Below are positions 20,633 through 40,023 of a DNA stretch of 64,000 nucleotides, in pieces. The DNA is taken from positions 1-64,000 of the forward strand of contig LADM01000097.1 in the NCBI GenBank assembly GCA_000961645.1. Reading direction: 5' to 3'. This stretch comes from Gammaproteobacteria bacterium BRH_c0 (GTDB lineage: Bacteria > Pseudomonadota > Gammaproteobacteria > Pseudomonadales > Porticoccaceae). Position 1 is the first letter of the stretch. The number at the start of each line of letters is the position of its first letter. A program made the translations under genes and the position numbers. The notes under the pieces were generated by a model. The model was not told the DNA's origin. It did no database searches and worked only from the letters and a program-made list of their open reading frames with translations.

Positions 20633-21160
20633 ATGGATCAGCCAAACAAAGACCTGCACACCCGGCTAAAGCGCTATCTCAGCCGCCTGTTGAGGCGCCC
20701 GGAAGATGTCGAGGACGTTGCCCAGGAATCTTTCCTGAAAGTGCTCGAGGCCGGATCAAAAGGCGAAATCCGCTACCCGCAAGCCTATCTATACCGCACA
20801 GCCCGCAATCTGGCCTTTAACAGCCTGGCGAGGAAAGACAATAAGATCGTCGATTCAATAGAGGATTTTCTCGACCCGGATGTCTTACAGCAAAGTGCAC
20901 CACTGGAAGACGATGTGGCTGCCCAGCGGCGTTTTGAACTCTTTTGCCGCGCCGCCGCCGAGCTGCCCGAGCAGTGTCGCCGGGTACTGATCCTGCGCAA
21001 GGTGTACGGCTTTTCCCAGCACGAAGTTGCCGAGCAGCTGGGTATCACTATCAGCACCGTGGAAAAACACCTCGCCAAGGGCCTGGTGCGGTGCAGTCAA
21101 TTTATGGCAGGCCACGGCGACAGCGCCGGGGCAACGCAGCCATTACGGAAACAGCAATGA
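20633..21160 (+). CDS. ECF sigma factor, FecI-like (cassette 1)
   Basis: 175 residues. Region 2 is at about 6-65 (LKRYLSRLLRRPEDVEDVAQESFLKV, then the Y.YRTARNLA.N block). Region 4 is at about 110-160, with the recognition helix EVAEQLGITISTVEKHLAKGL. It directs RNA polymerase to target promoters once its FecR-type partner is activated. The stop overlaps the fecR start (ATGA). Very similar to the sigma factor at 33608, with equal length, so the two cassettes descend from one duplication or shared lineage. Confidence 0.92.
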   Translation: MDQPNKDLHTRLKRYLSRLLRRPEDVEDVAQESFLKVLEAGSKGEIRYPQAYLYRTARNLAFNSLARKDNKIVDSIEDFLDPDVLQQSAPLEDDVAAQRRFELFCRAAAELPEQCRRVLILRKVYGFSQHEVAEQLGITISTVEKHLAKGLVRCSQFMAGHGDSAGATQPLRKQQ

Positions 21161-22257
21161 AGAACATCGTGCAATTCCCCGATACCAACGCGATTCAGGA
21201 GACAGCAGCCCTGTGGCTCGCCAGGCTGGATCGCGGAGAGATGTCCCATACGCAAAGACAGGAGTTGCAGGAGTGGCTGGAGAGTGATACTCGCCACCGC
21301 CAGGCACTCAATGAGATGGCTCAGTTGTGGGGGCAGATGGATGCCCTGGCGGTGCTGGCTGAATTGTTTCCGCTGCAAGCCGTCAATCACAGCGAGCGTT
21401 CCCGGCCACGCTTGTCCCCTCTGGCCTGGTTGCGTGAACATACACTGGGAGCTGCTGCCACCTTTGCCGTTAGCGCCAGCCTGGTCATGGGAATGGTATT
21501 TCTGCTCAATGGATCACCGGCAGAAATGGTGCCTGTTGGCAGCGAGCCGGTTGAGCTTGTTTATCAAACCGAACTGGGCAAGCAATCCACCGCCGAGCTG
21601 AAAGACGGCTCGACTATGGTGCTCAACACCCGGAGCCAGGCAAGAGTGCGCTTTGACGAGCGAGAGCGGGCCGTGTTTCTTGAAAGCGGTGAGGCACATT
21701 TCAAGGTGGCAAAAAATCCCCAGATTCCTTTTGTGGTTTACGCAGGCAATGGTCAGGTGCGTGCGGTCGGGACTGCATTCAGCGTTCGTATCGATGCAGA
21801 AAAAGTCAACGTCATGGTGTCGGAAGGAACGGTAAAAGTGGTTGCCGGCATCAAGCCTGGCGACAGGCAGGAAGCGCAGGTTTCGGCAAATCATGCATTG
21901 CAAACAATCACGCTGAGCGAGCGGGGTGTTGCAAACTACCGTGAATCCATCGAAGCCTATACCTATATCGAGCCTGAACAACTTACCCACAAGCTGGCAT
22001 GGAAAAGCGGAAAATGGATTTTCGAGGGGGAAACCCTGGCCGCTGTCATCGCCGAAGCCAATCGCTATACCACCGATAAAATTGAGATCACCGATCCGGC
22101 AATTGCCGGGCTCAGAGTGGGTGGCTATTTTGATGTGGGCGATGTGGCTGTACTTCTCAAAACCCTTGAAGCCGGTTTTGGCATCAAGGTCAGTCACCCC
22201 AGGGATGGCCTGATAGAGCTGTCGTACCGCAATGATGCCTATCCCTACTACCAATAA
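21157..22257 (+). CDS. FecR-type anti-sigma/signal transducer (cassette 1)
   Basis: 366 residues. A cytoplasmic N-terminal domain (1-95, with W..W/L..RG..S..Q..E...WL spacing) is followed by one membrane helix (about 97-118), a periplasmic FecR beta domain (about 140-245, with LKDGSTMVLNTRS and AVGTAFSVR) and a C-terminal STN-like domain (about 285-366, IAGLRVGGYFDVGDV). In this family the C-terminal part contacts the STN domain of the receptor and the N-terminus controls the sigma factor. The start at 21157 overlaps the sigma stop by four bases (ATGA). Confidence 0.9.
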   Translation: MKNIVQFPDTNAIQETAALWLARLDRGEMSHTQRQELQEWLESDTRHRQALNEMAQLWGQMDALAVLAELFPLQAVNHSERSRPRLSPLAWLREHTLGAAATFAVSASLVMGMVFLLNGSPAEMVPVGSEPVELVYQTELGKQSTAELKDGSTMVLNTRSQARVRFDERERAVFLESGEAHFKVAKNPQIPFVVYAGNGQVRAVGTAFSVRIDAEKVNVMVSEGTVKVVAGIKPGDRQEAQVSANHALQTITLSERGVANYRESIEAYTYIEPEQLTHKLAWKSGKWIFEGETLAAVIAEANRYTTDKIEITDPAIAGLRVGGYFDVGDVAVLLKTLEAGFGIKVSHPRDGLIELSYRNDAYPYYQ

Positions 22258-22349: not shown

Positions 22350-25300
22350 ATGGCTCGACTGTCATTTACGTCAAGAGGCTTGAACAGGATGCGGCTGTTT
22401 GGGCGGATTGTTACAGACAATGGCAGAGCATTATTTTTGCAATGCTTTCGCTGTATTTACCTGTCAATAATCTGCTCGCTGGCGACATGGATGCTGCCGG
22501 CATGGGGAGATGATCAAAAAATTAATTTCAGTATCCCGCCATCAAACGCCGATCAAGCACTGAATCTCTTTGCCCGACAAGCTGACATGCAGCTCCTGTA
22601 CCCGTACGAAACGGTAAAACAGGTGAAGCTTGATGGTTTGTCAGGAACATACAGGGTAGAAGACGGCATCGCACGTCTGCTCCGTGGTTCATGCCTTGAA
22701 GCTGTGTTCGGCAGGGATGATACAGAAAAACCAGATATTCACTCGAATAGTGATAAGAAGGGGGTCGTGACCATGAAAATTAATCAGTGCCAGAAAAAGA
22801 CACTGGCAGGATCTTTAGCCGCAGCGATTTTAGCGGGGTTTGGAGTGTCTCCCGGGTTTGCGCAAGAGGCAGGTGAGACTGACAAAGAAATCGAAGAAAT
22901 CGTTGTCACGGGTTCGCGTATTACCCGCCGTGACTACCAGTCTGAAAGCCCGGTCGTCACTGTCAATGTCCAGGATCTCCAGGTCAGCGGCCAGCAAACA
23001 CTGGGCGAAGCGCTGAACCAGCTTCCCCAGGTATCCGCCGGAGAGAGCGCCACAAGGCCTGGCAGTGGCGGGCGCACCACCGTTGACCTGCGCGGTCTTG
23101 GCAGCAGGCGTACCCTGGTACTGCTTGATGGCAAACGTCTCCAGCCGTCGGACATCTACAATACCATCGACCTCAATGGCATCCCTTCCTCGCTGATATC
23201 CGGTGTTGAAATCATCACTGGCGGCGCCTCTGCGGTCTATGGTTCTGATGCACTGGCAGGTGTGGTGAATTTTCAGTTGCGCAAGGATTTTACTGGGCTT
23301 GAACTGGATTTTCAGGGCGGCATGACTGATGAAAATGATGGCGAGAATGGCACCCTGAGCGCCACATTCGGTAGTGATTTTGCAGATGGTCGAGGTAATG
23401 TGGTGTTATCCGCCAGTTATTTGGATAGGAAGGATGTGTACCCACAGACCTCTCGGGATTTTTTCGCTCAGAGCACTCCAAACAGCTTGGGATTCGGTGG
23501 GGTAATCGTTGCCGATGGCACGAATTTCTACAACCCAGCGACTATTGCATCGGTGTTCCAATCCTATGGTGTTGCTAACCCCGGTTTTGCCGGAGCTTTT
23601 ATCCTCGCCACCAACAGGGATGGCACGCTGTTCGCACCGCGTGCTGCCAATGGTCTCAATTTCAGGGGCTTTCCCGGTATTGAAACCACAACACTGAACG
23701 GCACCATCGGCACACTGGCTGGCCAGCGCACCACGCTTGCGCTGCCCCTTGAGCGCTACACCATGTTTGGGCGCGGCGATTATGAAGTCACCGACAATAT
23801 CAAGGCCTACCTCCAGTTCAACTGGTCGTCATTCGAGACTGAGTCCCGTGGTGACGGTATCACTCCGCCACAAGACACCCCCTTTATTCCCGTGACCAAC
23901 CCCTTTATTCCTGCCGATCTGAAAACACTGCTGGATTCAAGGGGCAATCCCAATGCGCCCTTTTACTGGTCATTGACGCCTCTTGGGGAGGGCGGGTCGC
24001 ACACTGAAAACGATGTCTGGCAGGGCCAGGTTGGGCTGTCGGGGGAATTGCCGGGCCTGGGGTGGCGCTGGGATGCCTTTGCTGGCACGGGCAAAACCGA
24101 CATTCGCCAAACCACATTTAATGTCTATTCCCGATCAGCCTTCTCCGCTTTGGTTAATGCGCCGGACGGCGGTATGTCGATCTGTGAGGGAGGTCTAAAC
24201 CTCTTTCCTCTCACCAGCCTGTCAAGTGAGTGCAACGCCGCTTTGATGCGTGACCCAGTCAATATCCAGAGCCTGACCCAGGATCTTGCAGAAATAAATC
24301 TGACAGGGGATTTGTTCGATCTGCCAGCCGGTGAGGTGCGATTCGCAACAGGGTTGGCCTATCGCCGTAACAAATTTGATTACGATCCGGATGCTGGTGT
24401 AGTCAACAACCCGGCGTTTGGCGTGCCGGACTTGATTATTTCGACCGATCAGACTGCTCCCGCCTCAGGCTCAACCAATGTCAAGGAAGCTTATATCGAG
24501 CTGTTAGTCCCGATCCTGTCCGATGTGCCGTTCTTCCAGCGCCTCGATGTGAACCTGGCTTATCGCATGTCGGACTATGACACTATCGACGGGGTCAATA
24601 CCTACAAAGGGTCACTTGAATGGGTGCCGGTGGATGGTCTGCTTTTCCGTGGTGGCATACAGCGCGCTATCCGTGCGCCATCTATTGGTGAACTCTATGC
24701 GCCTGCGGCTTTTGGTGTCAGCACACTGGGCAATAATTTTGCCACAGGGGGTGGCGATCCATGCGACGTGCGGGGTATCTATCGCAGTGGGCCCAATGCT
24801 GCGCAAGTACGGGCATTGTGTGTTGCCCAGGGGATTCCGGAGTCCGATGTTGATACCTGGCAAGTCGATGGTACCGGGGTGCCGACCCAGGTCAGCGGTA
24901 ATCTCGACCTGATCGAGGAAACAGGTGACAGTATTACCTTTGGGGTAGTTTTACAGCCTGGATTTACTTCGCCCATATTGTCAGGAATTTCCACCTCGAT
25001 TGATGTCTACGATATCGAGATTGAGGATGCCATGGGTATTATCCCCGGCAACTTGGTAGTGCGATCCTGTTTCAACACCGGTGGTGAGAACCCGACCTAC
25101 AGCAATGATAATTTTTACTGTAGCCTGATTGACCGGGGTTTTATCAGCTTGCAGAAAGTTGGTACCCCCACCGTCAATCTGGCACGGATCAATGCCTCCG
25201 GTATCGACACACAGTTTGACTGGCCTGTGGACCTGGCGGATCTCGGCATTCGCAGCCTGCCCGGATCGCTCAACCTGAATCTCAATCTGTCCTGGCTCGA

Positions 25301-25703
25301 CAAGTACGAGATCGCCTCTCTACCGGGTTCGCCGCTGCTCGATTTCTCCGGCACCATCGGTAATGACGCCCTCGGCGGGCTATCGCACCCGGACTGGAAG
25401 GGCATCGGCACACTCACCTATCTCACGGATCAGTTCCAGCTCGGCGTGCGCGCCCGCTATATCGGCAGCATGGAAAACTCCCAGAACGTGAATACAACAC
25501 TGACCCTGGAAGGGGTGTCATCCATTACCTATTACGACCTGTTTGCACGCTATGACCTGGGTGAGGATATCTCTTTCCGGGCGGGCATCAATAATGTTGC
25601 CGACAAGGAGCCGCCGGAGTGGACCGGGCTCGGCAATACGGATCGCGCTACCTATGACGTTATCGGCCGCAGCTTCTACTTTGGTGCGACCATGCGCTTT
25701 TAA
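22350..25703 (+). CDS. STN-domain TonB-dependent receptor with internal second signal peptide (cassette 1)
   Basis: 1117 residues. A first signal-like segment (about 30-52) is followed by an STN signalling domain (about 58-119, SIPPSNADQALNLFARQADM). A second complete signal peptide begins at Met142 (KKTLAGSLAAAILAGFG, cleavage-like GFA-Q at 171/172). A TonB box is at about 181-189 (EEIVVTGSR), the plug at about 198-310 (GLGSRRTLVLLDGKR, ASAVYGSDALAGVVNF), and the 22-strand barrel ends in an aromatic strand (FYFGATMRF). It should import a substrate across the outer membrane and signal to the adjacent FecR. The start could also be the ATG at 22389. The ligand cannot be read from sequence. Internal signal: see 22773. 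Confidence 0.88.
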   Translation: MARLSFTSRGLNRMRLFGRIVTDNGRALFLQCFRCIYLSIICSLATWMLPAWGDDQKINFSIPPSNADQALNLFARQADMQLLYPYETVKQVKLDGLSGTYRVEDGIARLLRGSCLEAVFGRDDTEKPDIHSNSDKKGVVTMKINQCQKKTLAGSLAAAILAGFGVSPGFAQEAGETDKEIEEIVVTGSRITRRDYQSESPVVTVNVQDLQVSGQQTLGEALNQLPQVSAGESATRPGSGGRTTVDLRGLGSRRTLVLLDGKRLQPSDIYNTIDLNGIPSSLISGVEIITGGASAVYGSDALAGVVNFQLRKDFTGLELDFQGGMTDENDGENGTLSATFGSDFADGRGNVVLSASYLDRKDVYPQTSRDFFAQSTPNSLGFGGVIVADGTNFYNPATIASVFQSYGVANPGFAGAFILATNRDGTLFAPRAANGLNFRGFPGIETTTLNGTIGTLAGQRTTLALPLERYTMFGRGDYEVTDNIKAYLQFNWSSFETESRGDGITPPQDTPFIPVTNPFIPADLKTLLDSRGNPNAPFYWSLTPLGEGGSHTENDVWQGQVGLSGELPGLGWRWDAFAGTGKTDIRQTTFNVYSRSAFSALVNAPDGGMSICEGGLNLFPLTSLSSECNAALMRDPVNIQSLTQDLAEINLTGDLFDLPAGEVRFATGLAYRRNKFDYDPDAGVVNNPAFGVPDLIISTDQTAPASGSTNVKEAYIELLVPILSDVPFFQRLDVNLAYRMSDYDTIDGVNTYKGSLEWVPVDGLLFRGGIQRAIRAPSIGELYAPAAFGVSTLGNNFATGGGDPCDVRGIYRSGPNAAQVRALCVAQGIPESDVDTWQVDGTGVPTQVSGNLDLIEETGDSITFGVVLQPGFTSPILSGISTSIDVYDIEIEDAMGIIPGNLVVRSCFNTGGENPTYSNDNFYCSLIDRGFISLQKVGTPTVNLARINASGIDTQFDWPVDLADLGIRSLPGSLNLNLNLSWLDKYEIASLPGSPLLDFSGTIGNDALGGLSHPDWKGIGTLTYLTDQFQLGVRARYIGSMENSQNVNTTLTLEGVSSITYYDLFARYDLGEDISFRAGINNVADKEPPEWTGLGNTDRATYDVIGRSFYFGATMRF
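22773..22864 (+). other. internal signal peptide and possible internal start in receptor 1
   Basis: Met142 has aagaaggggg 8-17 bases upstream, and the next 30 residues form a textbook signal peptide with cleavage after GFA. A protein started here would be an ordinary receptor without the STN domain. If the full-length chain is made, signal peptidase might cut here and free the STN domain. Confidence 0.6.
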
Positions 25704-25763: not shown

Positions 25764-27032
25764 ATGGATATGAAAAGACGGGCATTTATGGCCGGCGCCG
25801 CCGCCCTTACAGCCGCTATCGGTGTTAATCGTGTCGCACTGGCAGCGTCGGGAGCGGCGTCCCCAGGGCCAGCGGATAAAACGGCGGCAAGCCAGGGCGA
25901 GCGCAACAAACAGTTGCTGCGCGCTCAGCGCGAGGCCTCGCAGATGCGAGTGCTGCCGAGCGCGATTCCCGGAGAGGAGGATCGATACAACCGCTCCTCG
26001 CCGCTTGGCGGGTTTTCGCCCAAGGTGATCATGGTGATGAACGACTCGCCCCGATTGCCGGGGATGTCCCAGGAAGAGGCCATGCGTATCCAGGGCGGTT
26101 TTGCCTCCCAGGCACTCGGCCCCACTTTTATCTCCTACGGTCCGATGCTTGCCGAGGGCGACATGGTTATCGAGGAGTGGGAATCGCAAATCTATGGTGC
26201 CAATGGAACGCTCTATAACAACCAATACCTGTCAATACAACGGTTTGAAGGCGATCAGGTTACTGAGTTCCACGAGTACAACGATACCCAGCACGCTGAG
26301 ATTATTTTTGGCCCCCTCGGCCAGTGGCCTGAGCTGAAGCCTGCCACCAATCCCCGGCGTCGCAATCGCCACGGCGAGTCCAGAGGCCCTGAATTGGCGG
26401 CCAATGAGATCGAGACCGTTTTTGAGATTGTCGACGAGTTCGAGATGGTCCCCCGTTTGCTGGCGGATGTAGTGCCCTCGGCTGCCACACCACCGGTCAA
26501 GGTCGCGCCGGGGGTTGAAGGCAACAAAGCGCTGGTCCGCGGTCTTCGCCACGCCAAGGCCAAGGGCGATCCCAAGCTCGTCAACAGCTTTTACGGTAAG
26601 GGGTTTCGCCACTTCGTCAGCGGCGAGCGACCCTTTGGCTGGGACCACCTACCCCTTGCCGAGATTTATGCGCCGTTGGTCGAGCATATGGCATCGCCAC
26701 TGACTGTGCGTTATGGACCCCTGTATGGGGATGGTGATCGCGTCTTTGAGCAGATGGACAGCTTTGCCCGCCTCGACGATGGCACGGTGTACAACAACTG
26801 GCACGCCTTCGTCCATGAGATACGGGACGGCAAGATCGTCCAGACCCGCGAATACCACGACCCCCGCCATGTCTGGGTGACCCTCGGTCGCTGGGCGGAA
26901 TGGGGCAAAACGCCAGTGCCACCACGTTCTTCTCCGCGGCGCTCGAATTTGCAGGGCATTGCCTCGACTATTCAGTACCCCACCTCCCTGGGGCCAGACC
27001 TGGAGCGCTGGCGGCCCTTTGAGTCGGTGTAA
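25764..27032 (+). CDS. double NTF2-like Tat-exported protein, array copy 1
   Basis: 422 residues. The Tat signal has KRRAFM then a weakly hydrophobic stretch ending ALA (about 1-27). Two homologous halves follow. In half 1, EGD is at 131-133, YNN at 151-153 and EYND at 171-174. In half 2, DGD is at 323-325, YNN at 343-345 and EYHD at 363-366. The offset is exactly 192 residues, so this is an internal duplication of a SnoaL/NTF2-like fold. Half 2 starts near GNKALVRGLRHAKAKGDPK (253-271). NTF2-fold proteins bind or convert small hydrophobic ligands. No enzyme activity can be named. RBS aagggg; follows receptor 1 by 60 bp. Confidence 0.8.
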   Translation: MDMKRRAFMAGAAALTAAIGVNRVALAASGAASPGPADKTAASQGERNKQLLRAQREASQMRVLPSAIPGEEDRYNRSSPLGGFSPKVIMVMNDSPRLPGMSQEEAMRIQGGFASQALGPTFISYGPMLAEGDMVIEEWESQIYGANGTLYNNQYLSIQRFEGDQVTEFHEYNDTQHAEIIFGPLGQWPELKPATNPRRRNRHGESRGPELAANEIETVFEIVDEFEMVPRLLADVVPSAATPPVKVAPGVEGNKALVRGLRHAKAKGDPKLVNSFYGKGFRHFVSGERPFGWDHLPLAEIYAPLVEHMASPLTVRYGPLYGDGDRVFEQMDSFARLDDGTVYNNWHAFVHEIRDGKIVQTREYHDPRHVWVTLGRWAEWGKTPVPPRSSPRRSNLQGIASTIQYPTSLGPDLERWRPFESV

Positions 27033-27067
27033 CGGTACGGTCGGCAGATATCGCAAGGAGATCGACC

Positions 27068-28339
27068 ATGGGCAACCGGTGGAACCGGCGCGAATTCATG
27101 CTCGGCGCTGCGGCGCTTGCCGCAGCGGTGGGGATCGAACGCGGAGCTATTGCCGCTCCCGATGCATCGGCGCCTAGGGCTGGCAATGGGCTTGTCGGCG
27201 ATCCTGGGGGCAATAAAGCATTACTCAACAAGCAACGGGAGGGGGCGCAGTTGCGAGCCTTGCCCAGCGCCATTCCGGGGGAGGAGGACAACTTTACTTC
27301 CTGGCCAATGGGCAGCGAACGGCCACTCCGATCCATGCATTCCAATGATTCGCCCATCACCCCCGACATGTCGGATGCAGACCGCGCCCGCATCCAGGGC
27401 GGGTTTGCCTCCCAGGCTCTGGGGCCGACTTTTCTTTCCTTCGGCCCCATGCTAGCCGAGGGCAAATACGTGGTGGAGGAATGGGAATCGCAAATCTACG
27501 GTGGCAACGGCACCCTCTATAACAATCAGTACATCACAGTACGGGAGCTGGAGGGCGGCAAGGTTACCCTGTCGCACCAGTACAACGACAGCCACCACGC
27601 CTCGCTGATTTTTGGCCCGCCAGGCAAGTGGCCGGCTATCAAACCGCCTACGGGACCGCGCCGACGCAACCATGACGGGCACACACCGCCAGCCTTTGCG
27701 CCGGGCGAGATCGAAACGGTATTCGAGGTCAGGGATCGGTTTGAGCTGGACCCCCGCATGCTCACCAGCGTGGTGCCAGCGGATTCGGCATCGCCGCTGT
27801 CCGCCAAACCGGGGATCGCCGCCAACAGAGCGCTCGTCCAAGGCCTGCGTCGGGCTCGGGCCGCGGGAGATCAGGCACAGGTCAACCGTTTTTATGGTCC
27901 GGGGTTTCGCCATTTTATGGCCGGTGAGCGGCCACTCGGCTGGAGCCCACTGCCCATGGAAGAACTCTATGCACCCCTTCTCAAGCATCTGGCCTCCCCC
28001 ATTACGGTGATCTACGGCCCCATGGTGGCGGATGACACACGCGTGTTTGAGCAGATGGATATCTTCGCCCGCCTCGACGATGGCACCGTGTACAACAACT
28101 GGCACGCGTTCGTCCATGAGATACGGGACGGCAAAATCGTCCAGACCCGCGAGTACCTCGATACGCTGCATCTGTGGGTGGTGCTGGGACGCTGGGCAGA
28201 GTGGGGCAAGGTGCCGGTGCCGCCCCGGTCGTCTCCGCGGCGCTCCAACCTGCAAGGCATTGCCGCAACAATCCAGTATCCCACCACCTTTGGTCCGGAT
28301 TTGGAGCGCTGGAGGCCTTTTGAGCCACTGCTCGGCTGA
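27068..28339 (+). CDS. double NTF2-like Tat-exported protein, array copy 2
   Basis: 423 residues with the same plan as copy 1: Tat motif RREFML, the ALPSAIPGEED block near residue 70, half 1 with NGTLYNNQY and QYNDSHHA, and half 2 with DGTVYNNWHAF and REYLDTLHLW. A 90-bp stretch in half 2 (about 28051-28140) is almost identical in DNA to copy 1, with only four synonymous changes seen, while the rest has diverged. A good aaggag lies upstream and only 35 bp separates it from copy 1, so they are likely one operon. The substituted LD in place of HD in the second motif may alter a ligand site. Confidence 0.8.
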   Translation: MGNRWNRREFMLGAAALAAAVGIERGAIAAPDASAPRAGNGLVGDPGGNKALLNKQREGAQLRALPSAIPGEEDNFTSWPMGSERPLRSMHSNDSPITPDMSDADRARIQGGFASQALGPTFLSFGPMLAEGKYVVEEWESQIYGGNGTLYNNQYITVRELEGGKVTLSHQYNDSHHASLIFGPPGKWPAIKPPTGPRRRNHDGHTPPAFAPGEIETVFEVRDRFELDPRMLTSVVPADSASPLSAKPGIAANRALVQGLRRARAAGDQAQVNRFYGPGFRHFMAGERPLGWSPLPMEELYAPLLKHLASPITVIYGPMVADDTRVFEQMDIFARLDDGTVYNNWHAFVHEIRDGKIVQTREYLDTLHLWVVLGRWAEWGKVPVPPRSSPRRSNLQGIAATIQYPTTFGPDLERWRPFEPLLG

Positions 28340-28402
28340 CGTCGGTACGAGCAAAATCAATCCTAAATCACATCAACAGACAGGTGATACTCGAGGTAGC
28401 GC

Positions 28403-29650
28403 ATGGATATGAAAAGACGTGAATTTATGGTTGCAGCGGCAGCACTTGCCACTGCCGTGGGCGTCGATCAAGAAGTGTTAGCCGGGTCTGATGCCAGCGG
28501 CGGGGTGGCAGGGGGAGATGCGGCCAAGAACAAACATCTTGTGCGCGAACGCCGCAACGCCTCTCAGATGCACGCCCTGCCGAGCGCCTTACCCGGAGCG
28601 GGGCCGTTTGAGATACAGACTCCTCTAGGCGGCTTGACCCCGAAAATTTTGCTGACAGCTGTTGATTCCCCCGCCAAAAGTGCGGATCCCAAAGACTTTA
28701 TGGCCATTGCTTCGGGGTTTCCGTCCCAGGCCTTGGGGCCTACCTTCCTCTCTTATGGCCCTATGTTTGCCGATGGCGATATTGTCTTCGAGGAATGGGA
28801 GTCCTTTATCTACGGCGCCAACGGCACGCTCTATAACAACCAGTATTGCTGGTTGCTGCGTGTCGAAGGGGATGATGTGGTGGAAATGCGTGAATACAAC
28901 GATAGTCAACATGCCGCACTTATTTTCGGACCTTTGGGAAAGTGGCCGGAGCTGACACCATCTACCAGTCCGCGGCGCCGCAGCCGCAAAGGTTTGCCGG
29001 TGCAGCCGCTGGCCGAAGACCAGCTGGAGACCGTGTTCGAGGTGGTGGATGAATTTCAACTTGATCCGCGTCTGCTCTGCGATGTTGTCCCCGTCGCTGG
29101 CCCTGCGCCAACGAAATTGGCCGCTGGTCCGGATGGTCATCGGGAACTGATCCAGGCCCTGCGCCGCGCCAAGGCTGCTGGTGACCAAGCGCTTATCAAC
29201 CGCTTTTATAGCAAGGGCTTTCGCCACTTTATCGGCGGTGAGTACCCCTTTGGCTGGGACCATCTGCCCCTGGAGGAAATTTATGCACCACTGGTCAAGC
29301 ACATTGCCTCGCCGCTGAGGGTGCGCTATGGGCCGATTTATGTGGACGGCAATCGGGTTATGGAGGAAATGGACAGCTTTGCAATGCTGGATGACGGCAC
29401 TGTCTACAATAACTGGCACTGTTTCGTCCACGAGATCAGCGATGGCAGGATTGTGCAGACACGGGAGTATCACGATTCCCGCCATGTGTGGGTGCTGCTG
29501 GGTCGGTGGGCGGACTGGGGTGCCACCCCGGTACAGCACCGCTCGATACCGAGACGTTCAAACCTGCAAGGCATCGCGATGACCACTCAGACACCGACAA
29601 TGTTCCTCGATTTGGAGCGCTGGCAGTCTTTCGCACCGTTGAAGAGTTGA
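28403..29650 (+). CDS. double NTF2-like Tat-exported protein, array copy 3
   Basis: 415 residues. The first residues MDMKRREFM nearly repeat copy 1, followed by a hydrophobic stretch and then AGSDASGG. Half 1 has NGTLYNNQYCWLLR and REYNDSQHA; half 2 has DGTVYNNWHCFVHE and REYHDSRHVW. It lacks the FxxRNL-type insert and is slightly shorter. Start chosen at 28403 (gaggtag upstream). The two halves keep the 20-residue spacing between YNN and EY.D motifs. Function as for copy 1; its difference from copies 1 and 2 suggests a changed ligand. Confidence 0.8.
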   Translation: MDMKRREFMVAAAALATAVGVDQEVLAGSDASGGVAGGDAAKNKHLVRERRNASQMHALPSALPGAGPFEIQTPLGGLTPKILLTAVDSPAKSADPKDFMAIASGFPSQALGPTFLSYGPMFADGDIVFEEWESFIYGANGTLYNNQYCWLLRVEGDDVVEMREYNDSQHAALIFGPLGKWPELTPSTSPRRRSRKGLPVQPLAEDQLETVFEVVDEFQLDPRLLCDVVPVAGPAPTKLAAGPDGHRELIQALRRAKAAGDQALINRFYSKGFRHFIGGEYPFGWDHLPLEEIYAPLVKHIASPLRVRYGPIYVDGNRVMEEMDSFAMLDDGTVYNNWHCFVHEISDGRIVQTREYHDSRHVWVLLGRWADWGATPVQHRSIPRRSNLQGIAMTTQTPTMFLDLERWQSFAPLKS

Positions 29651-29722
29651 GAGCCTGTAAAGTCAAGAACAATCATCTAAAGCAATCTACCTTGCAGAAC
29701 CGCATCATCAAGGAGAGCGAGC

Positions 29723-30997
29723 ATGGGCAACAATTGGAAAAGACGGGACGTATTCAGAATGGGTAGCGCTGCGGCATTGGCGGCTGTGCTCGGGGTTGAA
29801 CGCAGTGCGGCCTCCCCGGCTACGGTTGACAAAGTGAAAGAAGAGGGAAGCGCAGAAAAAAACAAGCGGTTGCTGCGTCAGCAGCGGGCAGCATCGCAGA
29901 TGTTTGCGCTGCCAAGTGCCATCCCGGGGGAAGAAGACAAATTCAATCTCAGGAATTTGACCCCGCTGGTTGGATTTTCACCAAAAGTCATTATGGTTTC
30001 CAACGACTCGCCCCTCACCCCCGATGACACGCCCGAAGATTTCATGGTCCGCGCATCAGGCTTTCCCTCCCAGGCACTGGGTCCGACTTTCCTCTCCTAT
30101 GGCCCGATGCTGGCCGAGGGGGATTTGGTGGTCGAGGAGTGGGAATCACAAATCTATGGCGCCAATGGCACGGTCTACAATAATCAGTATCTGTGGATAC
30201 TACGTTTTGAAAATGACACAGTGGTTGAAATGCATGAGTACAACGACACCCAGCACGCGGCGCTTATTTTCGGCCCTTTGGGGAAATGGCCGCAACTCAA
30301 GCCGCCGACAAATCCCAGACGCAGGAACCACCATGGAGAGAACAAGGGCGCGGCGCTGCCAGCGACCGAACTGGAGGCAGTCTTCGATATAGTGGACGAA
30401 TTCGAGCTTGATCCCCGGATGCTGTGCGATGTGATTCCCTCGGCATCCGCCCCGGCCATGCAAGGCCAGCCTGGCGCCGAGGGTAATAAGGCGCTGGTGC
30501 GTGCCCTACGACGTGCTCGTGCCGCCGGTGACTTGGCCCTAGTCAACAGCTTCTACGCCAAGGGGTTCCGGCACTTTATCAGCGGTGAATGGCCCTTCGG
30601 TTGGGACCATCTGCCAATCGAAGAAATCTACGCCCCGCTCGTCAAGCACCTGGCTTCGCCATTAACAGTGCGATACGGACCAATGATTGCCGACGAGACC
30701 CGTGTTTTCGAACAGATGGACAGCTTCGCCCGCCTCGATGACGGTACGGTTTATAACAATTGGCACGCCTATGTCCACGAGATTCGCGAGGGCAAGATCG
30801 TACAGACCCGGGAGTACCATGATCCACTCCATTTGTGGGTGGTGCTGGGCCGCTGGGCGCCTTGGGCCGACAAGCCGGTTGTGCCGGGTGCGACGCCGCG
30901 GCGCTCAAACCTTCAGGGGATCGCCACCACTATCCAATACCCGACGATGTTCCTTGATCTGGAGCGGTGGCGACCGTTCAAGCCGTCTGGCAACTGA
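29723..30997 (+). CDS. double NTF2-like exported protein, array copy 4
   Basis: 424 residues. The signal region is WKRRDVFRMGSAAALAAVLG: the twin Arg is present, but the +2 position has Val before Phe, a weaker Tat consensus than in copies 1-3. Half 1 has NGTVYNNQY and HEYNDTQHA; half 2 has DGTVYNNWHAYVHE and REYHDPLHLW. A strong aaggag lies 8 bases upstream. It is the last copy before a 1-kb stretch holding the decayed tannase-like fragment. Confidence 0.8.
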   Translation: MGNNWKRRDVFRMGSAAALAAVLGVERSAASPATVDKVKEEGSAEKNKRLLRQQRAASQMFALPSAIPGEEDKFNLRNLTPLVGFSPKVIMVSNDSPLTPDDTPEDFMVRASGFPSQALGPTFLSYGPMLAEGDLVVEEWESQIYGANGTVYNNQYLWILRFENDTVVEMHEYNDTQHAALIFGPLGKWPQLKPPTNPRRRNHHGENKGAALPATELEAVFDIVDEFELDPRMLCDVIPSASAPAMQGQPGAEGNKALVRALRRARAAGDLALVNSFYAKGFRHFISGEWPFGWDHLPIEEIYAPLVKHLASPLTVRYGPMIADETRVFEQMDSFARLDDGTVYNNWHAYVHEIREGKIVQTREYHDPLHLWVVLGRWAPWADKPVVPGATPRRSNLQGIATTIQYPTMFLDLERWRPFKPSGN

Positions 30998-31136
30998 CCT
31001 TGGATGAAATGCGGTACATTATGAGTACCAGCTTTCTTGAAATAGAGGAGAGGTTAAGAGGGCAGTACTATCTGTGAACGTCACCAACGTGCTGTAGAAA
31101 TGCTATTTTAAGCACTGTCTGGAAAGGCTCACGACG

Positions 31137-31823
31137 GTGATAGGTCTTTTTTCCCTCTTTGCGGAGGATGCGTATAGTAGCTACTTACACCTGTCTGTAA
31201 CCGACACGGTGCATCGGAATGAATCCATCGGCGATACCATCGCGAGAGCCTTCTTCGGCCCTGACTTTGACTTGTTGACGGATTTCGATTTCAACAACCA
31301 GGCGCAGGTCGATCATTACTGGGATATGGCCAAAAAGCTGGATTACGGTGATGCATTCAGCACCGATCTGTCGGCTGTGCAGAAAGCGGGTGGTAAAGTC
31401 ATTTTCTGGAACGGTGTGAGCGCACCCTGCTGTCTGGATCAGGACTTGCTCAAGTACTACACAACGGCGGCTGAGAGCGTGGGTGGACTGCCCGCTTTCA
31501 GGAAATTTGCCAGTTTCTATAAGGTTCCGGCTATCGGACACTGTGGCGGCGGAACAGACCCGGTGGACCATGCCGACAGGCTCTTTGAACGTTTGATGGC
31601 GTGGGTAGAGCAAGGTAAGGAGCCGGGAGCCATCGTTGCCCATCGGGGCAGTGGGGCTTCCTCGGTGTTTGCTGATCCGCTAAAAGGCACCGTTGCCGGT
31701 GTTGCTGTCCCAGCGCCGGTAGGCGATGCCCGCGACTTCCTGTTGTGCCCTTACCCGACCATCGCCAAATTTAAGGACAACGGTGGTGACGTCAACGATG
31801 CCGCCAACTGGGAGTGTAAATAG
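31137..31823 (+). pseudogene. decayed C-terminal half of a tannase/feruloyl-esterase-family protein
   Basis: The 228-residue frame matches only the C-terminal half of the tannase/feruloyl esterase family (PF07519): TDLSAVQKAGGKV, then VPAIGHCGGGTDP with the catalytic-type His and adjacent Cys, ending FLLCPYP.IAKFKDNG..NDAANWEC. The half with the catalytic Ser is missing, and the position that normally reads HGxxDP is NGVSAPCC, so the Asp is lost too. No ATG or convincing RBS starts it (GTG at 31137). It lies between array copies 4 and 5, a remnant of an ester-hydrolase gene that once belonged to the locus. Confidence 0.7.
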
Positions 31824-32014
31824 CAGGCCCGCTCCACAAGGGCCGATACTTTTATGGGGATGTTATGAATAAAGCACGCATGTCGCTTACTTATAACTCG
31901 AAGTCGTACCACTATAGAAATGCTGTAAGAGTGTGAATTGTAGTTGCTCATGTTGGAGAACGAACAAGGCTATTACAGGTTGAGTCGGTTGAATAATCAG
32001 AAGGAAGCGAGGAT

Positions 32015-33307
32015 ATGTCTTTTTCACGGAGAAGTTTTATCGGCCATTCAGTGGCAGGCCTTGCAGGGCTTGCCGTATCCGCTGCATCGCAATCCGCAAG
32101 CAGCGCGGCTGCCCCGAGTGGTGGGTTTAATGGCAGCGAAGATGCTACAGGCAATTGCGCTGGAGACGTGGCAAACATGTCGCCAACCGAACGCAACAAG
32201 TGGCTGTTACGCTCACGCTACCGCGCTATCCAGCGCCAGGTGGTGCCGCCAACCCTGCCTGGCGAGGTTGATCCACCACCGATCCACAAGGCGGAGGGAA
32301 ATACGGTCATATCCTGTCAGGATCCCCCCGGTGGTGTGGATGATCCGGCAAAAGTGATCCCGGCTATTGCCGGTTGGCACATGCAGAGCACCGCACCCAG
32401 CCTGACATCCTACGGGCCGATGATCGCCGAAGGGGATTATGTGGTGGAAGAGTGGGAGACGTTTTTCCACGGTCTTGATGGCACCATGTACAGCAATCAG
32501 TACTGTTGGATCAAACAGTTCAAGGACGGCAAGGAGGTGCAAATTCGCGAATATATCGACAGCCATCATGCCTTTGTTGTTCTCGGTCTCCACGCACCCT
32601 GGAAAGATTTGCCGCCGCCTACGGCGCCACGCCGTCACTGGCGGCCTGCCGCCCCGTCTGCCAGTGCGCCGCCGCTCACAGAGATGGAAACAGTATTCCC
32701 CATTCGCAAGGAGTTTGCCCTGGCCCCCGCCTTGCTTCGGGACATGACGCCGACAGCCAATGCAGCGGAAAAATTTCCGGACACGCCTGAAGGCAATAAA
32801 GCCATTGTTGCCGCCATGCGCGATGCGCAGGCCAAAGGTGATGCAAAGGCAGTGGCGAGTTACCTTGGCCACGGTTACCGGCATTTTATTGCCGGCGAAG
32901 GCCCCTTCGGCTGGGAGCGCTTGCCGCTGGAGGAACTCTATGCCCCTCTGGTTGAGCATCTCGATGGTGATATCACCGTGCGCGTGAGTGAGATGGTGGC
33001 GGAGGGCGGTTCCGTCTTTGAGGAAATGGATGTACTGGCCCGCCTCGATGACGGCACGGTGTATAACAACTGGCACTGCTTTATCCATGAGGTACGCAAT
33101 GGCCAGATCGTGCAAACCCGGGAATACATGGATACCCACCATTTCTGGGTAGTGTTCGCCCGCTGGGCTGAGTGGGGGAAAACTCCGGTGTCACCCATGC
33201 GCCAGGCGCGGCGCTCCAATTTGCCTTATATCACCGAAACCATCCAGGCCAGAAATCCGTTCCTCAAGCTCGATAGATGGGAGCAACTACCGCCGGCAAA
33301 AATATAA
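32015..33307 (+). CDS. double NTF2-like Tat-exported protein, array copy 5 (divergent)
   Basis: 430 residues, the most divergent copy. Tat signal SRRSFIGHSVAGLAGLAVSAA is the clearest of the five. Half 1 has GTMYSNQYCWIKQF and REYIDSHHA; half 2 has DGTVYNNWHCFIHE and REYMDTHHFW. It keeps the N-terminal NKWLLRSRYRA and the RSNLPYITETIQ tail. It is separated from copies 1-4 by the tannase remnant and sits directly before the second sigma/FecR/receptor cassette. RBS ggaagcgagg lies just upstream. Confidence 0.78.
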   Translation: MSFSRRSFIGHSVAGLAGLAVSAASQSASSAAAPSGGFNGSEDATGNCAGDVANMSPTERNKWLLRSRYRAIQRQVVPPTLPGEVDPPPIHKAEGNTVISCQDPPGGVDDPAKVIPAIAGWHMQSTAPSLTSYGPMIAEGDYVVEEWETFFHGLDGTMYSNQYCWIKQFKDGKEVQIREYIDSHHAFVVLGLHAPWKDLPPPTAPRRHWRPAAPSASAPPLTEMETVFPIRKEFALAPALLRDMTPTANAAEKFPDTPEGNKAIVAAMRDAQAKGDAKAVASYLGHGYRHFIAGEGPFGWERLPLEELYAPLVEHLDGDITVRVSEMVAEGGSVFEEMDVLARLDDGTVYNNWHCFIHEVRNGQIVQTREYMDTHHFWVVFARWAEWGKTPVSPMRQARRSNLPYITETIQARNPFLKLDRWEQLPPAKI

Positions 33308-33607
33308 CACCAGCAAGCCCTTGAGGCAGGGGGTAGCGGTCAGCAAATACTGCTCCTGTGTGGAAAATCTCCTGTGAAAACTAGCAACAAAGCAGCAGCG
33401 GATCTGGAAATGGGGATGCCTGTCTCTTCAGGTATGAGACATCATAAGTTATTGTCAGGTGACGTTGCTGAACAAGCCATATAGAAGATGTAAGAATTTC
33501 AAAGCAATTCTCCACTGGGCACAAAAGCCTGTCCAGCTGTTTTTACCATGTAGTAAATGCTAGAGTTCAACGGCTACTATAATCATAAAGAACAGTCCGG
33601 TGAGCTT
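33308..33607 (+). other. 300-bp region before the second ECF sigma gene
   Basis: No gene seen. It holds a small inverted repeat TGTCTC-N9-GAGACA (33421-33441) and the promoter-like motifs TGCTAGAGT (33558-33566) and TATAAT (33578-33583). The AT content rises from here. Confidence 0.5.
33558..33566 (+). promoter_or_regulatory. possible extended -10 promoter for the second ECF sigma gene
   Basis: TGCTAGAGT, identical to the nonamer upstream of the first sigma gene (20593-20601). A TATAAT at 33578-33583 is a competing -10. No clear -35. Confidence 0.35.
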
Positions 33608-34135
33608 ATGGATTTTGAGGATCAACGTCTGCATACGCGCCTCAAGCGCTATCTCTTCCGCCTGCTGAAAAGGCAGGAGGATGTCGAAGACGTAGTTCAG
33701 GAGTCATTTCTGAAAGTGTTGGAAGCGGCTTCAAAGGGGGACATCCACTACCCCAAAGCCTACTTGTACCGCACTGCGCGCAATCTGGCGCTGAATAGCC
33801 TGACAAAAAAGTCCACCCAACTGACAGATTCTCTTGAGGATTTACTCACCCCGGATGTCTTAGTAATGAGTGGGCTGCTGGAAGATGATCTTGAGATACA
33901 GCAGCGCTTTGAATCTTTTTGTCGTGCGGTGCTGACTTTGCCCGAGACGACTCGCAAGGTGCTATTGTTGAGAAAAGTGAATGGCCTTTCACGAAAAGAA
34001 GTGGCCGAAGAGCTTGAAATTAGTATCAGCTCTGTTGAAAAGCATTTAGCCAAGGCGCTGGATAGCTGCATCCGATATATGGACATCTGCGGATACCCGC
34101 TTGAGGTCAGGCAGCAGGTACGGAAGGAACGATGA
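33608..34135 (+). CDS. ECF sigma factor, FecI-like (cassette 2)
   Basis: 175 residues from the ATG at 33608, the same length as the cassette 1 sigma and sharing LHTRLKRYL.RLL.R.EDVEDV.QESFLKVLEA in region 2. Region 4 has EVAEELEISISSVEKHLAKAL (about 135-155). A frame open to 33557 adds 17 poorly supported residues. The stop overlaps the next start (ATGA). It should work with the FecR and STN receptor that follow. The gene is noticeably more AT-rich than its cassette 1 counterpart. Confidence 0.92.
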   Translation: MDFEDQRLHTRLKRYLFRLLKRQEDVEDVVQESFLKVLEAASKGDIHYPKAYLYRTARNLALNSLTKKSTQLTDSLEDLLTPDVLVMSGLLEDDLEIQQRFESFCRAVLTLPETTRKVLLLRKVNGLSRKEVAEELEISISSVEKHLAKALDSCIRYMDICGYPLEVRQQVRKER

Positions 34136-35223
34136 AAAACGTAGTGCAATTCCCGGAAAAAGAAACTCTTCAGGACAAGGCCATTCAGTGGCTGGTCAAA
34201 ATGGAGGATGGCGATTGGACCGAGCAGGATAAGGCCCAATTCCTTGCCTGGCTCGATAAAGATCCACGTCATCGGGAAGCCTTTGTCGGAGTGGCGAGGT
34301 TCTGGGGCGAATTGGAAGCGATAACAGTATTGGCTGACTTGATGCCCGAAGAAAAACGCCAGCCGGTTACGAGTCAGGGCAAGAGGTTCAGTCCACCACC
34401 CACTTGGTTCAGTCCATGGGGCAAGGCTTGGGCGGCAAGTATAGTGCTGGCTGCCATTTTGTGTGTTGGAGTCTTGCCCGTTATGCTCAAGCAGGCCCCT
34501 GTGGATTCTGCCAGTGTAGCAGTTGAATCCGCTGATGTGATCTACGAAACCCGATTGGGAGAGCAGACCAGAGCGGTATTGAATGATGGCTCTATCATGA
34601 CACTCAATACATCATCGCAGGCAGTTGTTGATTTTGATGAAAATGAGAGAAGGGTCTATCTGGAAAGTGGAGAAGCACTATTCGAGGTCGCAAAAAACAA
34701 GAATCGTCCATTTCGTGTGTATGCCGCAAACGGCAGAATTACCGCAGTGGGCACCGCGTTCAGCGTAAGAATCGATAAAGGCCGTGTCGATGTTGCCGTT
34801 TCGGAGGGAACTGTCGAAGTGGCTACAGGGCTTGAAATAGCCAGCAAAGCAAAGGCGCAGCCTGCATCCAGCGTAGTGCTAAAGGAAAGGGGGGTAGTCA
34901 ATTATCGTGATTCCATAGAGCATGTTGAGTATATTGACATCGAGAAAATTGAGCACAAGCTGGCATGGAAAACCGGCAAAATTGCCTTCAAGGGCGAAAC
35001 CCTTGAGCATGTAATCGCCGAGACTAACCGTTATACGCAACAAAAACTCGAAATTGCCGATCCATCCATAGCGCAAGTGCGCATCGGAGGCTATTTTGAT
35101 GTCGGTGATATGGATCAGCTGCTAACCCTCTTCAAGGGTAGTTTTGGCATAGAAGTCGTTCACACCAAGGATAATGTGCTTTACCTCGCCTCCACAGCTA
35201 GCCTTCCAAAAAGCGATCATTGA
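34132..35223 (+). CDS. FecR-type anti-sigma/signal transducer (cassette 2)
   Basis: 363 residues with the same plan as the 21157 protein: cytoplasmic domain (1-97), one membrane helix (about 99-119, ASIVLAAILCVGVLPVML), periplasmic FecR domain with LNDGSIMTLNTSS and AVGTAFSVR, and C-terminal STN-like part ending IAQVRIGGYFDVGDM (about 320-345). The N-termini MKNVVQFPEKE and MKNIVQFPDTN are alike. It is coupled to the sigma gene by ATGA. Confidence 0.9.
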   Translation: MKNVVQFPEKETLQDKAIQWLVKMEDGDWTEQDKAQFLAWLDKDPRHREAFVGVARFWGELEAITVLADLMPEEKRQPVTSQGKRFSPPPTWFSPWGKAWAASIVLAAILCVGVLPVMLKQAPVDSASVAVESADVIYETRLGEQTRAVLNDGSIMTLNTSSQAVVDFDENERRVYLESGEALFEVAKNKNRPFRVYAANGRITAVGTAFSVRIDKGRVDVAVSEGTVEVATGLEIASKAKAQPASSVVLKERGVVNYRDSIEHVEYIDIEKIEHKLAWKTGKIAFKGETLEHVIAETNRYTQQKLEIADPSIAQVRIGGYFDVGDMDQLLTLFKGSFGIEVVHTKDNVLYLASTASLPKSDH

Positions 35224-35295
35224 TGGCCGGAGTCACCACGCTGATCGGCACAAGACATGCTGAATTACCTATTCCAATAAAAAACTGAAATTCCT

Positions 35296-37983
35296 ATGAG
35301 GGTTTTTATGGCCGGATTGTCTTTGTATAGGCACATCAAAGATATTGAGGGGTTACATAACGGCCTGAACTGTTCATATAAAAAGTCAAAGTCATTGCTC
35401 GCGCGAAAACTTATTTTTCGTTGGCTTTTTTTTGCCGTAATTCTATGGAATCCGGCAGGCTGGGCAGTTGAGCATGTAATCGAGTTTAGTATCCCGCCAT
35501 CCAATGCGGACGCAGCGCTGAATTTGCTGGCAAATCAGGCGGATGTGCAATTGATGTACCCATACAGCATTGCAAAAAATGTCAAGGTAAAAGGGTTGTC
35601 CGGCGCATATACGGCTAGAGAAGGTGTTGAGAAATTGTTGCGTGATACATGCCTCGGTATAGGTTTCCATGCTGATGGGACAATACAAAATAATGTGATA
35701 AAGGGAATAGCAATAATGAAATTAAGCGATTGTAAAAAAGTCGGCATATTAACTGCGCTATCAGCTGCTCTTGCGACCATGCTGACACCAAGTACGGTGT
35801 CAGCACAGGAAGATCAGTTGACTCGAAGTGGGATGCTTGAAGAAATCGTTGTGGTCGCTCGTCGCACAGAAGAGCGTCTTCAGGATGTACCAATCACTGT
35901 AACAGCAATATCTGGTGACTTGATCCGCAGGGCTTCAATAAGTAATGCAACGGATCTTATCAAAGTAGTTCCTACATTATCTGTAGCCCAAAGTTCACAA
36001 GGCCCAGGCCAGGGCTATGCGTTGCGTGGAGTCCGAAGTGGTGTTGTTACCTATTTCAATGAAGTGCCTACAGCAACTGTAGCTGTAGATGATCAGATAT
36101 GGGACTTGGATTCTGTGCAGGCGCTTTCTGGGCCGCAAGGAACATTGTTTGGTCGAAACAGTACTGGCGGCGCTGTCTTATTTATACCTCATAAACCGAT
36201 AGATGAGGTAGAAGGATTCATAGACGCAGAAGTAGGAAATTATAACCAGCGAAAGATTACAGCTGTTCTTAATACTCCAATCACAGATTCGTTAAGTGTT
36301 CGTGTCGGTGCACGAACCGTTCGCCGTGATGGAGTCGTAAAAAATTCTCTTGGTCCAGATTTACAGTCACAAGATCGAAATGCTTATAGAGCATCAGTAC
36401 TATTCGAGCCCAATGAAATAGTGACAAACTATTTAGTTCTTGATTATGCAGAGCGTGATGAAACACCTTTTGGGCTAGTCACATCAAATGTAACCCCTAA
36501 TGCAGGGTGTTTCCCGGGGTTGGGCTGTTTTTATGGAAGTGAACTTGCGGAACTTGGTGAGCTTCAAGATCGGCTTGGTCGTAGAAGAATTGCATCCCAA
36601 TATCCTGCGTCACAAGAAACCAGGCAGTGGGGAGTTTCAAATATTATCACATTGCAACCATCAGACCAGATTTCAATAAAGTACATTTTGGGTGTTAGAA
36701 ATGATGAGTTTGATCAGTTTAAGAGCCAAACATCTATTAACTTGCCTGCGCAGATTGGACTTAATTCACAGGAGGGAAAATCCAATACACATGAGCTCCA
36801 AGTTATAACAGATTTCTTTGATAATAAATTGAATTGGACAAATGGCTTTTTTTATAGCAAGGCAGATAGTGATGCAATAAGTTCGTACCTGTTATTCGGC
36901 ACTGTAGGGTTACCTTTCGACAATGATAGTAATGTCTTTACAAGCTCAAGCAATCAACGAAAATCAAGGGCAATTTATAGTCAGGCCACATATGCATTTA
37001 CGGAAAATGTGAATCTGACAGTTGGGCTTAGGTACACAGAGGAGGAGGCTAGTTTGGATCTCTCTTCAGTGGGTCCACAGTTTACATTTGTTGGCCCTCA
37101 AGTATGTCGATTGCCAAATGGTCCAGATGTCGATTCAATAAATTGCTTCCGCAGTCTTAGTGATAGATACAATGCAACCACATACAATTTATCAATAGAT
37201 TACCGTGTTAGTAGCGATTTTTTATTGTATGGAACAATGCGGCGTGGGTTTAATGCGGGAGGTTTCAATTCGTCAGCGCCCCGGGATGTGCAGCCTGGTT
37301 CTCCTAGACCGAGTTATGGTCCAGAGGAAATAAATGACTATGAGCTTGGATTCAAAGCAGACTGGTTCGTGGGTTCAATGTTAGTGCGAACCAATCTGGG
37401 TCTTTTTTATGCAAAATATCGTGATATCCAACGTGGAGCCGTTGGTATAAGTGATGAAGGAGTCCCCTTCCAAGGTGTTACAACTGGGCCTAAGGCTACG
37501 ATTTATGGTGGTCAGCTTGAGACGTTGATCAGACCAGTCGATAATTTTTTGCTTCAGTTAAATTACGGTTATCTTAATACTGGGTATGATGAGGCGATTG
37601 ATGGATTCTCAAAAGGTAATAACTTTTCGCAATCTCCTGAAAATACTGTAAACATTCTAGCTAACTATATTTATCCTGTATCTGTTGGTGGTGAATTCTC
37701 TGCAACAGCCTCTTATACCTATCAAAGCAGTATCTCATTCGCTGATGTCACAGAGAATAAGTCCTATGCATTTCAGGGAAGTTATGGTCTCGTAGACTTT
37801 AGGCTGGATTGGAATGATGTGGCAGGAAAGCGATTTGATATAGGTTTTTATGTAAAAAATGCAACTGACAAGGCGTATGCTCTGGAAAGAAACGACTTGA
37901 TATCTGCATTTGGATTTGTGAGTTCAGTTTATAATGATCCTAGAACCTATGGCATAAATTTTAGATTTCGTTTTGGTGATTAA
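35296..37983 (+). CDS. STN-domain TonB-dependent receptor with internal second signal peptide (cassette 2)
   Basis: 895 residues. A first signal segment (about 38-57, FRWLFFAVILWNPAGWA) is followed by an STN domain (about 63-122, SIPPSNADAALNLLANQADV). A second signal peptide starts at Met141 (KKVGILTALSAALATMLTPS, cleavage-like VSA-Q at 170/171). The TonB box is at about 182-187 (EEIVVV), the plug at about 195-310 (GPQGTLFGRNSTGGAVLF), and a barrel reaches FRFRFGD. The plug is of the IroN/FyuA-like 'ARRTEERLQDVPIT' type and differs from receptor 1, so the shared double-signal layout is not just recent duplication. Start could be ATG 35308. AT-rich. Confidence 0.88.
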   Translation: MRVFMAGLSLYRHIKDIEGLHNGLNCSYKKSKSLLARKLIFRWLFFAVILWNPAGWAVEHVIEFSIPPSNADAALNLLANQADVQLMYPYSIAKNVKVKGLSGAYTAREGVEKLLRDTCLGIGFHADGTIQNNVIKGIAIMKLSDCKKVGILTALSAALATMLTPSTVSAQEDQLTRSGMLEEIVVVARRTEERLQDVPITVTAISGDLIRRASISNATDLIKVVPTLSVAQSSQGPGQGYALRGVRSGVVTYFNEVPTATVAVDDQIWDLDSVQALSGPQGTLFGRNSTGGAVLFIPHKPIDEVEGFIDAEVGNYNQRKITAVLNTPITDSLSVRVGARTVRRDGVVKNSLGPDLQSQDRNAYRASVLFEPNEIVTNYLVLDYAERDETPFGLVTSNVTPNAGCFPGLGCFYGSELAELGELQDRLGRRRIASQYPASQETRQWGVSNIITLQPSDQISIKYILGVRNDEFDQFKSQTSINLPAQIGLNSQEGKSNTHELQVITDFFDNKLNWTNGFFYSKADSDAISSYLLFGTVGLPFDNDSNVFTSSSNQRKSRAIYSQATYAFTENVNLTVGLRYTEEEASLDLSSVGPQFTFVGPQVCRLPNGPDVDSINCFRSLSDRYNATTYNLSIDYRVSSDFLLYGTMRRGFNAGGFNSSAPRDVQPGSPRPSYGPEEINDYELGFKADWFVGSMLVRTNLGLFYAKYRDIQRGAVGISDEGVPFQGVTTGPKATIYGGQLETLIRPVDNFLLQLNYGYLNTGYDEAIDGFSKGNNFSQSPENTVNILANYIYPVSVGGEFSATASYTYQSSISFADVTENKSYAFQGSYGLVDFRLDWNDVAGKRFDIGFYVKNATDKAYALERNDLISAFGFVSSVYNDPRTYGINFRFRFGD
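35716..35805 (+). other. internal signal peptide and possible internal start in receptor 2
   Basis: Met141 has aaaggga 9-15 bases upstream and opens a second signal peptide, at almost the same place as Met142 of receptor 1. A protein started here would lack the STN domain. Confidence 0.6.
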
Positions 37984-37999
37984 ATAAAAGGAAAAAATA

Positions 38000-39595: not shown

Positions 39596-39814
39596 GGTTT
39601 GGCGGAGAATATTATCAAGCTGTTGATAAATAAGGGAGAAATATAAAGCTGCAGGTTCCTACGCCAACAATAGTACGAGTTTGCACTGCACCGATTTACA
39701 TAACCAGATCAGATAAGTGAAAGTCACAGCCAGGACCCAAAGATAAAGTTGAGTAGCAAGTCATCGCCGCCACGTGTCTGGTTCCGATATCCCCTCTCAG
39801 TATAGACTTGCAGG

Positions 39815-39855
39815 GACAAGCTACTCGCGGCATATTGTGCAGCGAGTAGCTTGTC
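39815..39855 (+). terminator. strong terminator of the receptor 2-esterase operon
   Basis: GACAAGCTACTCGC pairs perfectly with GCGAGTAGCTTGTC across a 13-base loop, followed by ttt. The 14-bp stem is the clearest terminator in the window, about 220 bp after the esterase stop. Confidence 0.75.
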
Positions 39856-40023
39856 TTTGCGACGAGTACTGCTGATCATTCTTCCATAACCGAAACGATC
39901 GTATCTATATCTGGCAGGTGTCAGGCGGGCCTGTTGGAGGATATATGCTACGAAATCAAATAGTTAGAAGTTTTGTGCAGCTCTCAGAGTCTGGTTTTAA
40001 AGTGTTGATTTTTCACTTTGCAA

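Follow-up and report, generated by a model that had tools for sequence, protein, structure and literature searches.

A tandem array of exported-type SnoaL-like proteins beside TonB-dependent receptor genes in a gammaproteobacterium

The window analysed here is a stretch of 64,000 nucleotides, the start of contig LADM01000097.1 of Gammaproteobacteria bacterium BRH_c0, a little-known marine bacterium. Between positions 25,764 and 33,307 it carries five paralogous genes, all on the + strand, whose open reading frames (ORFs) are intact and encode proteins of 415 to 430 residues built on one plan: a twin-arginine signal, a P..(I/L)PG block (ALPSAIPGEED and its variants), and two halves that resemble each other. 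An earlier sequence-only reading had recognized this plan, the signal and the block, and all three hold in every copy. It had also described five tandem copies; the number stands, but the array is not contiguous, being interrupted by a truncated tannase gene between copies 4 and 5, and a sixth copy lies on another contig. Identity to copy 1 ranges from 45 to 70%. The genes of the array are as follows.

25764..27032, + strand: copy 1, 422 residues; N half from about residue 45, C half from about residue 250; SnoaL_2 33.7 bits in two stretches
27068..28339, + strand: copy 2, 423 residues; SnoaL_2 27.3 bits; Glu at the base position of the N half replaced by Gln
28403..29650, + strand: copy 3, 415 residues; SnoaL_2 31.9 bits in two stretches
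29723..30997, + strand: copy 4, 424 residues; SnoaL_2 34.2 bits; N half modelled alone
31137..31823, + strand: 5'-truncated tannase/feruloyl-esterase gene; PF07519 E 1.6e-24, profile positions 315-490 of 490
32015..33307, + strand: copy 5, 430 residues; SnoaL_2 42.3 bits; the most divergent of the five

The tannase fragment, which is without its N-terminal two thirds, begins 139 bp from the preceding gene.

The two halves of these proteins are homologous, the product of an internal duplication. In copy 1 the motif pairs EGD131/DGD323, YNN151/YNN343 and EYND171/EYHD363 are each separated by exactly 192 residues, as the sequence-only reading had noted, and 192 is also the best self-offset of the protein, with 26 identities (in 2000 shuffles of one half, the maxima averaged 18.6 and the highest was 26). 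Stronger evidence for homology comes from profile comparison. When seven proteins (the five window copies, copy 6 and one copy from a sister genome) were divided, the profile of the seven N halves matched that of the seven C halves in hhalign with an E-value of 7.3e-21 over 171 columns, a span that takes in the RNK helix at the N-terminal end and the PRR.N tail at the C-terminal end. BLASTP of the halves within each protein gave E-values of 1e-12 to 1e-17.

All five whole proteins reach the cut-off (27 bits) of the Pfam family SnoaL_2 (PF12680), with the best match in the C half. An AlphaFold2 model of the C half, built from only seven sequences, has pLDDT values mostly of 80-96; the N half is weaker, and model confidence is low around the PSAIPGEED block. 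Structural comparison of the C-half model by VIA places NTF2-fold proteins on top, SnoaL-type enzymes first: ChaU (Z 10.2, 2.8 Å, 121 residues) and Lsd19, 3rga (Z 9.6, 3.4 Å, 115 residues), with SnoaL2, ketosteroid isomerase and relatives of limonene epoxide hydrolase (LEH) among the further matches. When the N half of copy 4 was folded by itself from 17 rows, its matches came from the same group but with lower Z values (9.0 to 6.2), led by ChaU (Z 9.0, 3.1 Å, 117 residues), AclR (8.1) and SnoaL2 (8.0). Thus, both halves are predicted to adopt NTF2/SnoaL-type folds, with helices packed against a curved sheet to give a cone, the N half on a model of mean pLDDT 64.7. Weak matches to acyl-ACP thioesterase and malonate-decarboxylase were dismissed, and an NCBIfam search returned no informative model. 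The top Foldseek row by E-value was an iota-carbonic anhydrase (7C5X), but with a TM-score of 0.15 and an rmsd of 20.6 Å; iota-carbonic anhydrases have tandem cone-shaped domains in common with the array proteins, but this candidate was dropped because no usable superposition was obtained; their being missing from the VIA list excludes nothing.

The sequence-only reading knew of no described family of this type. That statement does not survive, since the halves are of the SnoaL_2/NTF2-like kind and enzymes with tandem NTF2 domains have been described. Single-domain SnoaL_2 proteins (3FGY/3GRD, and those on contigs C9 and C61 of the same genome) share the fold and the G..Y.N motif, and the closest of them also carry E(Y/F).D..H. 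The SnoaL_2 proteins of the host are single-domain and without a visible export signal, whereas the array proteins have two halves, the twin-arginine signal and, within the N half, a loop of the PSAIPGEED type. The Lsd19/MonB polyether epoxide hydrolases (3RGA) likewise contain two tandem NTF2-like domains per chain, and in Lsd19 both domains are catalytic (PMC8827043). However, these are Streptomyces biosynthetic enzymes without receptor linkage and of low identity (16%), and the likeness is limited to architecture and fold, the base position being Glu here and a catalytic Asp in the Lsd19 type. For ketosteroid isomerase the likeness is a fold match only. PhzA/B, a single-domain protein of phenazine biosynthesis, has its Glu140 where the C half has the Glu of its EY motif. 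LEH gives a weak sequence match to the C half (E 0.01-0.7), and most copies have acids at the positions of its Asp101 and Asp132; the full Asp101-Arg99-Asp132 triad is not found, and the LEH Pfam model stays under its cut-off.

The Glu of the EY.D motif in the C half (Glu363 in copy 1, Glu370 in copy 5) falls on PhzA/B Glu140 in a HMMER alignment (residue 160 of a chain that carries a 20-residue tag) and, in a sequence alignment, on LEH Asp132. All seven C halves have this base-position Glu. Among the N halves it occurs in five of seven, with Gln in its place in copy 2 and Met in copy 6; the D and H of EY.D..H are found in 14 of 14 halves. Glu140 of PhzB sits in the wall of the ligand pocket (PMC11998002), and the acid/base catalyst of SnoaL is Asp121 (PMC6830212). 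The N half has kept its fold and most of its polar residues; because its Glu is lost in two of the seven proteins, it more likely serves as a second, altered site for binding or as a dimer partner built into the chain.

The twin arginine (R5-R6 in copy 1) is invariant in all seven proteins and the genome encodes TatC. The best reading is that the proteins are exported by the twin-arginine translocation (Tat) pathway and are periplasmic.

On each side the array is bordered by genes for an extracytoplasmic function (ECF) sigma factor, a FecR-like protein and a TonB-dependent receptor, in accord with the earlier claim of a sigma/anti-sigma pair on both sides.

20633..21160, + strand: ECF sigma factor, cassette 1 (profile search)
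21154..22257, + strand: FecR-like anti-sigma factor, cassette 1 (FecR E 2e-19, DUF4880; start approximate, at MKNIVQF)
22350..25703, + strand: TonB-dependent receptor with STN-like N-terminus, cassette 1 (profile matches)
33557..34135, + strand: ECF sigma factor, cassette 2 (profile match)
34132..35223, + strand: FecR-like anti-sigma factor, cassette 2 (profile matches)
35296..37983, + strand: TonB-dependent receptor, cassette 2 (profile matches)
38000..39595, + strand: exported-type carboxylesterase, directly 3' of the cassette 2 receptor (PF00135 E 4e-101)

A gap of 60 bp separates the cassette 1 receptor gene from the start of copy 1, and the receptor gene and the array are likely co-read in one transcript; scans for promoters and terminators gave results at chance level. 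The array was said to follow an STN receptor, and the position is right, but the Pfam STN match is below its cut-off (E 0.044, 14.1 bits against 28.4). The FecA model matches the STN region of this receptor nonetheless; the cassette 2 receptor has no Pfam STN match. In both receptors a second hydrophobic stretch resembling a signal peptide lies after the STN region and before the plug (MKINQCQKKTLAGSLAAAILAGFG... and MKLSDCKKVGILTALSAALATML...). Over the second cassette and the esterase (34000-40000), GC content falls to 0.41-0.47, and the sister genome lacks this stretch at the corresponding locus.

The sixth copy is full-length and lies on contig C101 (C101:157). The closest paralogue of the window receptor in the genome, at 56% identity, is C115:8440-11364; 146 bp separate its end from the end of the contig, which runs into an insertion-sequence repeat. 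On C101 that repeat stops about 27 bp short of copy 6, which reads in the same direction as the C115 receptor. The repeat occurs at five contig ends, and its flank (CTA) is identical at all five, so the ends cannot be paired by flank; the pairing is not proven, but chance is unlikely because the window-receptor paralogue stands, in the correct orientation, at one of so few possible ends. This probable pairing, together with the window itself, supports a close linkage of the family to a TonB-dependent receptor. The C115 receptor is preceded by an amidase with a twin-arginine signal and an AraC regulator, and in its region no STN domain and no ECF/FecR genes were seen. The insertion-sequence end in the window occupies positions 1-294, and its terminal repeat recurs at the other four contig ends (C37, C101, C109 and C115). 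A small ORF at 1097-1615 is IS200/IS605-type transposase-like, judged by eye only.

Relatives were found in one other genome, a Porticoccaceae metagenome-assembled genome (MAG), NAT127 (L011, equal to G356), of the same genus. The single intact copy found there is the orthologue of copy 5, with 76% identity. The sister locus has lost the sigma/FecR/receptor block, and what remains is a fusion at L011 9806-10219, in which about the first 72 codons of an ECF sigma gene are joined in frame to about the last 60 of a tandem-SnoaL copy; this is the scar of a deletion. No homologue of the window receptor was found in the sister genome at E 1e-60. The sequence-only reading had cast the array proteins as ligand-binding or ligand-processing partners of surface signalling, which would supply or convert the ligand that induces a switch of STN receptor, FecR and sigma factor. 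The placement of the array between two such cassettes fits this idea, and the sister fusion suggests that the linkage is old. However, the C115 receptor that faces copy 6 stands after an AraC regulator without STN or ECF/FecR genes, and an intact copy persists in the sister genome, which has neither a receptor homologue at that E limit nor, at that locus, the signalling block. A signalling partnership is thus improbable. The linkage data together make the ancestral unit look like a receptor gene plus a tandem-SnoaL gene, with the signalling genes a replaceable regulator.

Beyond the sister MAG, the family appears rare and has so far been seen in one genus only. A family-level sample gave that one relative, and none was found in order, class and phylum samples of 293, 368 and 397 other genomes (E limits 1e-20, 1e-15 and 1e-13). 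A scan of 84,980 genomes, which required one of two exact peptide patterns and which rarer or diverged relatives may escape, found one MAG. Viral contigs held no relatives, and plasmids searched by tblastn gave only single-domain NTF2-like pieces covering at most 36% of the query. The array itself consists of old duplications under purifying selection, to judge from its codons: copies 1-4 differ pairwise at 18-28% of second and 53-62% of third positions, and the differences at positions 1 and 2 are well below those at position 3. The C halves are more alike than the N halves in nearly all pairs. The sequence-only reading had proposed that five copies could cover a range of ligand specificities; the age, divergence and conservation of copies 1-4 are compatible with this but do not demonstrate it. 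Decay of an old array into relics with no current role could explain the tannase fragment at 31137-31823 and the fusion in the sister genome, but six host copies and one sister copy are full-length and their change is biased to the third position, which makes this account highly improbable.

Together, the observations are tentatively read, at somewhat less than an even chance, as a genus-restricted, Tat-exported family of tandem SnoaL-like proteins that serve as periplasmic partners of a TonB-dependent receptor. The receptor would import an ester- or amide-linked compound, probably ring-bearing, which an exported esterase or amidase would cleave; the tandem SnoaL protein would bind the imported or released compound, and its C-half pocket would probably carry out an acid-base step of the hydration, isomerisation or cyclisation type through Glu363/Glu370. 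Ester or amide substrates are suggested by the hydrolases nearby (the tannase fragment, the carboxylesterase and the amidase) and by a genome rich in tannase-family genes. At least nine full-length genes of that family are present (G000 C51, C10, C43 and C120; L032, L033 and L034), one group of which adjoins a receptor-like gene.

Several observations weigh against this reading. The N halves alone score at most 17.4 bits against SnoaL_2, under the cut-off; their homology to the C halves was shown by hhalign. Matches to the TAT_signal model are below its cut-off (copy 2, E 0.006), and the adjacency of the C115 receptor and copy 6 is drawn across an assembly gap and not proven. The C-half Glu is placed in a pocket by alignment. 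The position of LEH Arg99 aligns with Glu or Gln in both halves of all copies, so the proteins are not LEH members, and copy 6 has Met at the position of Asp101.

A somewhat less favored view is that the proteins are non-catalytic carriers whose halves are pockets that pass receptor cargo to the esterases or to an inner-membrane transporter, with ligand preference varying by copy. The missing Arg99 and the acid lost from two N halves agree with this, as does the tendency of exported NTF2-like proteins to be binders (PMC3924330). A branched-chain-type ABC transporter with a binding protein also lies downstream in both genomes; its permease domains and ATPase are fused in one ORF of about 890 residues (window 43077-45755, L011 12113-14806). 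Against mere carrying stand the Glu at the catalytic position of every C half, the D and H kept throughout, and the greater conservation of the C half, as would be expected of an active site. Because the C-half Glu is conserved, catalysis is slightly ahead.

No paper linking SnoaL-like proteins to TonB receptors was found in the open-access literature searched; as judged from that literature, what is new is a tandem form that is exported and linked to a TonB receptor, tandem NTF2 enzymes being already known. A further proposal, which we consider rather unlikely, is that the array represents an undescribed class of TonB-uptake accessory: a two-pocket, Tat-exported protein co-inherited with its receptor and tandem-duplicated to widen the range of imported substrates. 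If the link to the receptor holds, the dedicated periplasmic partners of TonB-dependent receptors would include SnoaL/NTF2 pockets as well as esterases, and these pockets would offer a clue to the cargo of orphan marine receptors. The array, with its old and conserved paralogues next to a single receptor, also provides a set in which the effect of pocket duplication on substrate range can be tested.
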